Source: Corynebacterium sp. HMSC04H06 | Lineage (GTDB): Bacteria; Actinomycetota; Actinomycetes; Mycobacteriales; Mycobacteriaceae | DNA: 64,000 nt | Direction: 5' to 3' | NCBI RefSeq assembly: GCF_001815935.1 | Contig: NZ_KV823421.1 | Span: 1 to 64,000, forward strand | Shown here: positions 39,064 to 40,606 of the stretch, one piece after another | Layout: each line of letters starts with the position of its first letter | How positions within the stretch are numbered: position 1 is the first letter of the stretch | Notes under the pieces: model-generated | Database searches by the model: none | What the model was told of the DNA's origin: nothing | What the model saw: only the letters and a program-made list of their open reading frames with translations | Made by a program: the position numbers and the translations under genes

Positions 39064-39105
39064 ACTCTAACAAACTTGAAACTACGGCGTACCGTAGTTT
39101 AAATT
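39064..39105. promoter_or_regulatory. Shared mntR-nrdI promoter region with a 9+9 bp palindromic operator
   Basis: An inverted repeat AAACTACGG-N4-CCGTAGTTT occupies 39079-39100. It lies between TTGAAA (39076-39081) and TAAATT (39100-39105), a -35/-10 pair 18 bp apart with the nrdI ATG six bases on. On the minus strand TAGAGT (39064-39069) is the mntR -10, which puts its -35 inside the palindrome. A repressor bound here would block both leaderless promoters. Confidence 0.7.
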
Positions 39106-39111
39106 TGCTTC

Positions 39112-39546
39112 ATGCCGTATTCTGTCGATTCGTTCCGGACGTGCGCGACCGATTTGATCTATTTTTCCTCCGCCTCCGAGAACACCCACCGTTTCGTAGC
39201 CCAGCTCAACCGGCCCGCCGCGCGCATCCCCCTGCGCCCTAAACGCGAACCCATGCTGCTGGCCACTCGGCCTTTCGTCTTGGTCGTCCCCACTTACGGC
39301 GGCGGCAACCGCGCGCAAGCTATCCCGCGCCAGGTGCGGGCGTTCCTCAACGTGCCTGCCAACCGCGCCCTCCTGCGCGGCGTCATCACGAGCGGAAACA
39401 CCAATTTCGGCGAGGATTTCTGCGTCGCCGGAAAACTGATTGCTAACAAGACCGGGGTCCCGGAGCTGTACCACTTCGAGCTTCTCGGCACCCCCTTCGA
39501 CGTCGAACGCGTCAACGCAGGACTGGCCTATTTTTGGGCCCACTGA
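39112..39546 (+). CDS. nrdI: NrdI flavodoxin for ribonucleotide reductase activation
   Basis: 144-residue FMN protein that generates the oxidant (superoxide/peroxide) used to activate NrdF. LIYFSSASENTHRFV is the phosphate loop, VVPTYGGGNRAQAIPRQV the flavin 50s-type loop and GNTNFGEDFCVAGKLIA the second flavin loop. It has about ten more N-terminal residues than usual NrdI; no later start codon fits. In class Ib it supplies oxidant to the Mn site; with the metal-free NrdF next to it, it would instead drive conversion of the radical tyrosine to DOPA. It precedes nrdF by 58 bases and no nrdE or nrdH is nearby. Confidence 0.9.
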   Translation: MPYSVDSFRTCATDLIYFSSASENTHRFVAQLNRPAARIPLRPKREPMLLATRPFVLVVPTYGGGNRAQAIPRQVRAFLNVPANRALLRGVITSGNTNFGEDFCVAGKLIANKTGVPELYHFELLGTPFDVERVNAGLAYFWAH

Positions 39547-39604
39547 CCGGCCGCAATACGCAACGCCTTTTACCCACCCACCAAGCCTTAAAGGAGAGCA
39601 AGAA

Positions 39605-40606
39605 TTGTCCATTATCTCGCAGTCCGTCACCCCGCCCGAGCTCAAGCGGACACCAGCAGCCCGCGTGCGGCCCATCAACTGGAACCGCACCCAGGATCCG
39701 AAGGACCTAGAGGTCTGGAACCGGCTGACTTCCAATTTCTGGCTGCCCGAGAAGGTCCCGCTGTCCAATGACTTGAACGACTGGCACGGGCTGACGGCTA
39801 CGGAACGCACCCAGACCATCCGCGTTTTCACCGGGCTGACCCTGCTGGACACGCTCCAAGCCACGGTGGGCGAGGTCTCCCAGATCCCCGACGCCCAAAC
39901 CGAGCACGAGGAGGCGGTCTACACCAACATCGCTTTCATGCAATCCGTGCACGCGCGCAGCTATTCTTCGATCTTTTCAACCCTGACCACCACGGAGGAA
40001 ATCGACGCCGCCTACCAGTGGGCGGTGGACAACGACCTGCTCCAGCGGCGCGTGAAAATGGTGGCCCGCCACTACTTCGGCGCGGACAAGCTAAAGCGCA
40101 AGGCCGCGGCCACCTTGCTTTCATCGCTGCTGCTCTACGCGGGGTTCTACCTCCCGCTCCACTTCGCCGCGCGCGGCACCCTGACCAATACCGCGGATCT
40201 CATCCGCCTCATCTTGCGGGACAAAGCGGTGCACGGCTACTACTCCGGCTACAAGTTCCAGCGGGGCCTAGAAAAGGCCCCGCACCGCGCCGCAGAGCTC
40301 GACGACTTCGTGCACGACCTGCTCGACAAGCTCTACGAACTCGAGCTGCAGTATTCGGCAGAGCTCTACGAGCCCCTGGGGCTAATGGACGGCGTGGCCA
40401 CGTTCGTGCGCTACAACGCCAATAAGGCGCTCATGAACCTGGGATACCCGGCGCGCTTTGACTATTCGTCCACGGCCGTGGACTCGGCGGTACTGACCGC
40501 GCTGGCCCCCAGCGCGGACGAGAACCACGACTTCTTTTCCGGATCGGGCTCCTCCTACGTCATCGGGCGCGCAGAGGCCACCAACGACGCAGACTGGAGC
40601 TTCTAA
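39605..40606 (+). CDS. nrdF: Class Ie (QSK-type, metal-free) ribonucleotide reductase beta subunit NrdF
   Basis: 333 residues with the whole R2F fold. Against S. Typhimurium R2F numbering the offset is a constant +15: Asp82 (D67), His116 (H101), Tyr120 (radical Y105) and His210 (H195) are kept, but the three metal-binding glutamates are Gln113 (E98), Ser173 (E158) and Lys207 (E192), in FMQSVHARSY, TLLSSLLLY and LRDKAVHGYY. This Q-S-K set defines class Ie, which uses a DOPA radical without metal. The C-terminal tail SADENHDFFSGSGSSYVIG that docks in NrdE is intact, so it should serve an NrdE encoded elsewhere. Start is TTG 39605 with AAAGGAG eight bases upstream. Confidence 0.92.
   Translation: MSIISQSVTPPELKRTPAARVRPINWNRTQDPKDLEVWNRLTSNFWLPEKVPLSNDLNDWHGLTATERTQTIRVFTGLTLLDTLQATVGEVSQIPDAQTEHEEAVYTNIAFMQSVHARSYSSIFSTLTTTEEIDAAYQWAVDNDLLQRRVKMVARHYFGADKLKRKAAATLLSSLLLYAGFYLPLHFAARGTLTNTADLIRLILRDKAVHGYYSGYKFQRGLEKAPHRAAELDDFVHDLLDKLYELELQYSAELYEPLGLMDGVATFVRYNANKALMNLGYPARFDYSSTAVDSAVLTALAPSADENHDFFSGSGSSYVIGRAEATNDADWSF

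Follow-up and report, generated by a model that had tools for sequence, protein, structure and literature searches.

The window analysed here, a stretch of 64,000 nucleotides from Corynebacterium sp. HMSC04H06 (contig NZ_KV823421.1), carries between purB and purD (both named from sequence) a DtxR-family gene on the minus strand and the genes nrdI and nrdF on the plus strand, with purD as the next gene after nrdF and convergent with it. Judged by its sequence, the NrdF belongs to the class Ie group of ribonucleotide reductase (RNR) beta subunits, in which glutamine, serine and lysine (QSK) stand in place of three metal-binding glutamates, and it is predicted to be metal-free. With a probability of about three in four, manganese (Mn) shortage derepresses this beta subunit through the adjoining MntR-like repressor and a palindromic operator in the nrdI promoter, and the subunit pairs with an NrdE whose gene lies at another locus of the genome. 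The preliminary description of this DNA had read the locus as an MntR-type switch, and the sequence, the predicted operator and a comparison across the genus all argue for that reading. It had overlooked a second, mobile-looking mntR-nrdIEF cassette, the private nature of the operator, an Asp-to-Asn change in the regulator and an association with flavin reductases.

Alignment and a residue check confirm that Gln113, Ser173 and Lys207 occupy the positions of the metal glutamates, and that Asp82, His116, His210 and the radical Tyr120 are retained, as had been described; the offset from R2F numbering, which we take to be 15, fits. The top match in the PDB is the solved QSK enzyme 8rag/8rah (477.8 bits, nearly full length), and NrdI is encoded beside the class Ie NrdF, as in the QSK group. 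These residues, the best PDB match and the position of the protein in a QSK clade uphold the class Ie assignment. The same NrdF is 99% identical in the sister genome G032, and the best 40 of 550 matching plasmid records show at most 63.4% identity to it and include no Corynebacterium. The naming of Aerococcus and Mesoplasma as Q-S-K examples was mistaken; according to the accessible text of PMC11846895, their enzymes have valine, proline and lysine (VPK) instead.

A search of 242 Corynebacterium genomes with the window NrdF gave matches listed down to about 423 bits. The QSK set takes in every match of at least 450 bits (109) and the two loci of the present genome, which gives 111 loci from 109 genomes. 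The control set has 32 loci: the class Ib locus of the present genome and 31 of the 39 weaker matches in the list, which score no higher than 432.6 bits. The QSK residues are found in all 111 loci of the first set, the window included, and three glutamates (EEE) in all 32 controls. In a tree the QSK proteins group together as a single clade, which holds 52 of the 65 tips and has a support of 0.845. The species are related, and clustering at 90% identity reduces the 111 loci to 41 protein clusters. Of the 111 QSK loci, 66 have an MntR-like gene within the same stretch, and of the 32 EEE loci none has one. The gap between it and nrdI is at most 310 bp in 51 of these 66 and 0.5 to 2.7 kb in the other 15; the two genes are divergent in three (the window, L127 and L128) and co-directional in 63, and the mntR match in L176 is partial only. 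In a second sample of 80 named loci, where eight of the 36 QSK loci are from Corynebacterium and overlap the genus set, an MntR-like gene is nearby in 10 of the 36 QSK loci and in none of the 44 EEE loci. MntR-like genes near class Ie genes were also seen in Actinomyces (L008, L015) and Brachybacterium (L012, L014). All 109 QSK genomes have at least two NrdF matches, the second being EEE wherever it was fetched, which disagrees with the count of 40 Corynebacterium species having a QSK enzyme as their only RNR in the accessible text of PMC11846895. As separate observations, one class Ie nrdF (G130:C34:15991-16974) has a stop codon within the matched stretch and is possibly a broken copy, and L139 and L140 hold class Ie nrdIEF genes with no nearby mntR and with sequences resembling NrdR boxes upstream of nrdI (3 and 2 mismatches). 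Loci of this last type, a minority, are probably under another regulator, to judge by these boxes.

The regulator encoded next to nrdI is, as described, a divergent DtxR-family protein with the MntR-type glutamate in place of Cys102 of DtxR; in the alignment this is Glu107, and Glu110 and His111 correspond to Glu105 and His106. The DtxR dimer domain (PF02742) scores above its cut-off at C30:38644-38850, and the best solved relative is PDB 5zr4 (2.7e-61), which we take to be the MntR of Mycobacterium tuberculosis. However, Asn14 stands at the position of DtxR Met10 and of the aspartate ligand of known MntRs, presumably Asp8 in Bacillus numbering, and for this reason the protein is called MntR-like. 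Its score with the NCBIfam MntR equivalog NF047407, 158.1 bits, is under the 350-bit cut-off. Among the 66 nearby MntRs the first-ligand residue is Asn in 53 and Asp in 12, one being partly readable, and both housekeeping MntRs examined have Asp. The recognition helices of the nearby MntRs are unlike those of the housekeeping proteins (LSSASDAVRKL in the window versus LPTASEAVKRL and TPTASEAVKKL in two housekeeping MntRs). The genome has four DtxR-family genes, namely DtxR (C26), which adjoins sigma-factor- and epimerase-like genes, a housekeeping mntR (C19), divergent from an ATP-binding cassette (ABC) metal transporter operon, the one in the window and one on C49; apart from the Pfam match, these names are read from sequence.

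The arrangement of the nrdI promoter suggests how such a repressor would act. In the 221 bases scanned, TTGAAA-18-TAAATT is the sole promoter-like match, where shuffles give 0.1, and its -10 box ends 6 bases upstream of the nrdI ATG, so that a leaderless mRNA is likely. The spacer between the two hexamers is occupied by the palindrome, which is exact over 9+9 bases, as first reported. The accompanying statement that it also covers the -35 of the mntR-like gene is unsupported, because the scan of these 221 bases found no promoter-like match for that gene. We infer that the palindrome is the operator to which the MntR-like protein would bind. At up to two mismatches, its 20-mer core has three sites in the 2.38 Mb genome, one in the window and two between mntR and nrdI in another class Ie cassette, which is far from chance. 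With three mismatches allowed, the count is at control level. Two other forms of control were considered and rejected for this promoter: upstream of nrdI the closest NrdR-like sequence shows seven mismatches, and the best match to the housekeeping MntR box has five.

Across the genus two box types divide most of the QSK loci between them, as found in 330 bases around and before the aligned start of the first gene at up to two mismatches. The type 1 box, ACTACG-N6-CGTAGT, occurs in 51 of the 66 loci with a nearby mntR, in 6 of the 45 without one and in 1 of the 32 EEE loci (shuffles 0.9%), while the type 2 box, GTTCAA-N4-TTGAAC, occurs in none of the 66, in 38 of the 45 and in none of the 32 (shuffles 1.1%). 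One box or the other is thus present at 91 of 111 QSK loci versus 1 of 32 EEE loci. Counted by 90% clusters, type 1 is found in 11 of 18 with mntR and type 2 in 19 of 23 without. The exact 20-base type 1 core has 75 sites in 41 of the 242 genomes (summed counts), against one site for the reversed control, and all 75 exact cores in the fetched QSK loci lie in gaps that have an MntR-like gene on one side and a class Ie nrdI on the other. The half-sites AACTACG and CGTAGTT are constant around a variable 6-base centre, and each locus has between one and three copies. The type 2 box occurs exactly in the gap between the housekeeping mntR and the ABC metal transporter operon of the present genome and, with two mismatches, before a like operon in genome G039; because of this placement it is probably the box of the housekeeping MntR.

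Genome G039 connects the type 2 loci with published work. Its DtxR is identical over 226 residues to PDB 1bi0, the diphtheria toxin repressor, and the genome therefore belongs to C. diphtheriae or to a very close sister of it. Its QSK nrdI-nrdF pair (L229), which has no nrdE, bears the exact type 2 core AGTTCAATGCGTTGAACT, and its other nrdF (L253) is EEE and accompanied by nrdE. In C. diphtheriae, DIP1923 (nrdI) and DIP1924 (nrdF2) are listed as MntR-regulated and change like mntABCD (PMC13001254, Table 3, citing Peng et al. 2021, in its accessible text); gene order suggests that DIP1924 is the QSK gene of G039. The term 'class I' is not applied to nrdI-nrdF2 in the accessible text of PMC13001254, and a 2023 review considers the RNR of C. 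diphtheriae very likely Mn-dependent (PMC9936198, accessible part).

A sequence of events consistent with these findings can be proposed. With ample Mn, the Mn-loaded repressor would sit between the -35 and -10 of nrdI and block the promoter, and perhaps its own as well, the gap shared by the two genes being 54 bp. As Mn falls, the repressor would leave, and NrdI and the class Ie subunit (R2e) would be made. NrdI and oxygen would convert Tyr120 to a dihydroxyphenylalanine (DOPA) radical, as shown for relatives, and the electrons for NrdI may come from a co-regulated flavin mononucleotide (FMN) reductase, which in this genome is encoded within the second class Ie cassette, outside the window. 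R2e would then drive NrdE in place of the Mn-starved class Ib NrdF, and the synthesis of DNA precursors could continue. In the accessible literature, class Ib is Mn-dependent in C. glutamicum and C. ammoniagenes (PMC9936198), and QSK proteins without their own nrdE are proposed to be able to use the class Ib R1 (PMC11846895).

The partners that this scheme would need are present outside the window. The genome (2.38 Mb, 72 contigs) has three nrdF, two nrdE and three nrdI genes; the earlier statement that there is no nrdE holds within the window but not for the genome, and the ordinary EEE nrdF with nrdE that had been supposed to exist is found, with nrdI, on C68 (L084). The other nrdE belongs to the cassette on C49 (L085), which consists of an mntR-like gene, two palindromes, nrdI, nrdE, a QSK nrdF and an NADPH-dependent FMN reductase (PF03358), with genes for a resolvase, SSB and DNA polymerase A nearby. 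Fourteen loci of other species match this cassette at 96-99.8% identity over about 5.8-9.8 kb, and 22 more at 82-92%; insertion-sequence-like genes, read from sequence, flank it in G033. Near-identity across species, together with flanking resolvase, SSB or insertion-sequence-like genes, makes recent horizontal transfer of the mntR-nrdIEF cassette likely. This observation, in which the cassette includes the flavin reductase, concerns L085:1-14001, L295 and L296.

Flavin enzymes accompany class Ie genes well beyond this cassette. A PF03358 reductase gene lies no more than 400 bp downstream of nrdF and in the same orientation in 62 of the 111 QSK loci and in none of the 32 EEE loci, and 50 of these 62 have a nearby mntR. 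A PNPOx-type flavoprotein and/or a PF01613 flavin reductase lies upstream in 22 further QSK loci, which brings the count to 84 of 111; the remaining 27 include the window. Upstream of nrdI, a PNPOx-type protein with PF01613 was seen instead of the FMN reductase in L199-L202, L210, L211, L213, L216 and L217, and a PNPOx-type protein in L203, L205-L209, L212 and L233-L235. Among the 80 named loci, the FMN reductase is near nrdF in 12 of 36 QSK loci, and any of the three flavin enzyme types in 16 of 36, versus none of 44 EEE loci for either. A close homologue of the reductase is present in 77 of the 109 QSK genomes versus 7 of the 133 others, a comparison whose Fisher value is overstated because the species are related. 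Fifteen of the 77 reductases are not directly after nrdF, and 6 of the 11 of these that were fetched have a type 2 box (at most two mismatches), as do 2 of 6 fetched from the seven genomes without QSK. In G039 the reductase follows sodA, shares 60% identity with its counterpart in the C49 cassette and has an exact type 2 core beginning 61 bases before its ATG. It would, from gene order, be DIP2262, an 'oxidoreductase' adjoining sodA (DIP2261) whose change has the same sign as that of nrdI and the opposite sign to that of sodA (PMC13001254, accessible text). The FMN reductase is thus a candidate NrdI reductase, as its gene context suggests. A broader and more tentative proposal can be made, which we hold at a little under even odds: class Ie in Corynebacterium would be a dedicated Mn-starvation module, mntR-nrdI-(nrdE)-nrdF-FMN reductase, with its own MntR paralogue and private operator, passed on as a nearly unchanged mobile cassette and including a co-regulated flavin reductase as the missing electron donor of NrdI for the DOPA radical.

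Several findings weigh against control of class Ie by Mn shortage. Most QSK loci outside Corynebacterium among the 80 named loci have no nearby MntR, and several of them show, by eye, NrdR-like boxes. Within the genus, both boxes are lacking at this threshold from 20 of the 111 QSK loci. At three mismatches type 2 matches are at control level (118 versus 111 in G039, 55 versus 56 in the present genome, G000), and a chance match with one mismatch lies inside the window nrdF at 39763; only strong matches in promoter regions therefore count. The window locus has none of the three flavin reductase types in the 10 kb examined. The replacement of the aspartate ligand by Asn14 may alter Mn affinity or selectivity, and the MntR of C. 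diphtheriae can also be activated by high iron (PMC13001254, accessible text). These last two points, with the score below the NCBIfam cut-off, would fit a DtxR-family regulator whose signal is not mainly Mn, the Asn ligand giving it another metal preference or threshold, such as iron or a general shortage of divalent metals. We regard this as unlikely: the regulator resembles MntR in the glutamate that replaces Cys102 and in the Glu and His ligands close to it, 12 of the 66 nearby MntRs retain Asp with the same gene set, and most sister loci without their own mntR bear the housekeeping MntR box.

The other alternatives concern single components. A terminator scan marks the palindrome on both strands, as would be expected if it were nothing more than a hairpin or terminator acting in both directions between the two divergent genes, but its place between the nrdI promoter hexamers, the constancy of the half-sites around a varying centre in up to three copies per locus and the confinement of all 75 exact sites to mntR/nrdI gaps make this very improbable; chance or a terminator as the origin of the window palindrome was rejected on its rarity, its placement in the promoter and the same restriction. 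The idea that the QSK NrdF is a paralogue in decay and has no function, for which the intact EEE enzyme in the same genome and the interrupted copy in G130 could be cited, is harder still to credit in view of an open frame that keeps Tyr120, Asp82 and both histidines, the near-identity in G032, the residues common to all 111 loci and the activity of the QSK enzyme of Bifidobacterium (Gardnerella) vaginale, for which DOPA is reported as well (accessible text of PMC11846895). Much more open to doubt is the role of the flavin enzymes, which could well be reductases with a general task in oxidative stress or quinone reduction, regulated by MntR and hitch-hiking alongside the cassette, a possibility only a little short of an even chance. 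We take PF03358 proteins to have many roles, the C. diphtheriae gene adjoins sodA and not nrdI, the close homologue is lacking in 32 of 109 QSK genomes and present in 7 of 133 without QSK, and the window locus has no such gene. Against hitch-hiking stand the enrichment in QSK genomes, the position directly after nrdF at QSK loci and at no EEE locus, the different flavin enzyme type upstream in 22 more loci and the same association among the named loci.

The closest known systems each share a part of what is proposed for the window, as far as the accessible text of the sources goes. The class Ie enzyme of B. vaginale (8rag, 8rah; PMC11846895) has, like that of the window, Q, S and K, the kept tyrosine and nrdI upstream, but it is encoded in nrdHIEF with its own NrdE, whereas the window has only nrdI-nrdF, with NrdE elsewhere and an MntR-like gene and predicted operator adjoining. 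In Streptococcus pyogenes the DtxR-family Mn sensor MtsR controls RNR genes, and metals repress class Ie (PMC8463856 and PMC9253540, reporting Do et al. 2019). Like the present genome, with its EEE set on C68, S. pyogenes also has a class Ib enzyme; its MtsR is, however, the regulator of the Mn importer, while the window regulator is a distinct paralogue that is encoded next to the RNR genes and has a private box. The S. pyogenes class Ie enzyme is VPK, not QSK, and comes from a different phylum. The nrdI-nrdF2 pair of C. diphtheriae (DIP1923-1924), from the same genus, is MntR-regulated (PMC13001254) and fits the QSK locus of G039, but it has no nearby mntR and bears the GTTCAA-N4-TTGAAC box instead of an adjoining mntR-like gene and a type 1 box. 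The NrdF from the class Ib locus of the present genome (L084) and R2F of C. ammoniagenes belong to the family of the window protein, with nrdI in the locus and about 59% identity, and differ in having the three glutamate ligands. The M. tuberculosis MntR (5zr4) shares with the window regulator the DtxR family and the Glu at the Cys102 position, and has Asp where the latter has Asn14. The claim that coupling of class Ie to an MntR switch is not a described system therefore needs narrowing, given metal-repressed class Ie in S. pyogenes and MntR-regulated nrdI-nrdF2 in C. diphtheriae. PMC11846895 grouped RNR genes only, within 300 nt, and its accessible text mentions neither MntR nor FMN reductase; in a literature of largely open-access text, seen in part, nothing was found that connects the class Ie genes of Corynebacterium with a nearby MntR or an FMN reductase. 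As far as these searches go, three things are new: the dedicated regulator that has an operator of its own, the box rule across the genus and the association with flavin reductases. The features are listed in Table 1.

Table 1. Coordinates of the features discussed; positions without a locus prefix are those of the window
Feature	Position	Strand	Basis or remark
MntR-like (DtxR-family) repressor gene	38380-39057	-	225 aa
-35-like hexamer TTGAAA of nrdI	39076-39081	+	promoter scan
Palindrome AAACTACGG-CGTA-CCGTAGTTT, predicted type 1 operator of the MntR-like protein	39079-39100		exact 9+9, 4-base centre
Core AACTACG-N6-CGTAGTT of the palindrome	39080-39099		type 1 box
-10-like hexamer TAAATT of nrdI	39100-39105	+	promoter scan
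nrdI	39112-39546	+	144 aa, flavodoxin-like beta-subunit activator; TIGR00333 133 bits, cut-off 74.65
AAAGGAG, likely ribosome-binding site of nrdF	39590-39596	+	sequence
nrdF, class Ie (QSK) ribonucleotide reductase beta subunit	39605-40606	+	TTG start, 333 aa
Gln113 codon (class Ib: metal Glu)	39941-39943	+	NrdF residue check
Ser173 codon (class Ib: metal Glu)	40121-40123	+	NrdF residue check
Lys207 codon (class Ib: metal Glu)	40223-40225	+	NrdF residue check
NADPH-dependent FMN reductase	L085:7574-8152 (G000:C49:10573-11151)		directly after class Ie nrdF; candidate NrdI reductase
FMN reductase after sodA	L300:1440-2037 (G039:C1)		unlinked to nrdI
Loci with near-identical cassette	L136, L141-L151, L153, L154		beyond them the match stops or drops to ~80%

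The genus-wide box rule suggests that manganese shortage is the trigger of class Ie in Corynebacterium, and a testable candidate for the NrdI reductase can now be named. The rule also suggests a way for host-associated Corynebacterium to continue DNA synthesis while the host withholds Mn. A cassette that brings its own sensor, operator and helper could confer independence from Mn by a single transfer.

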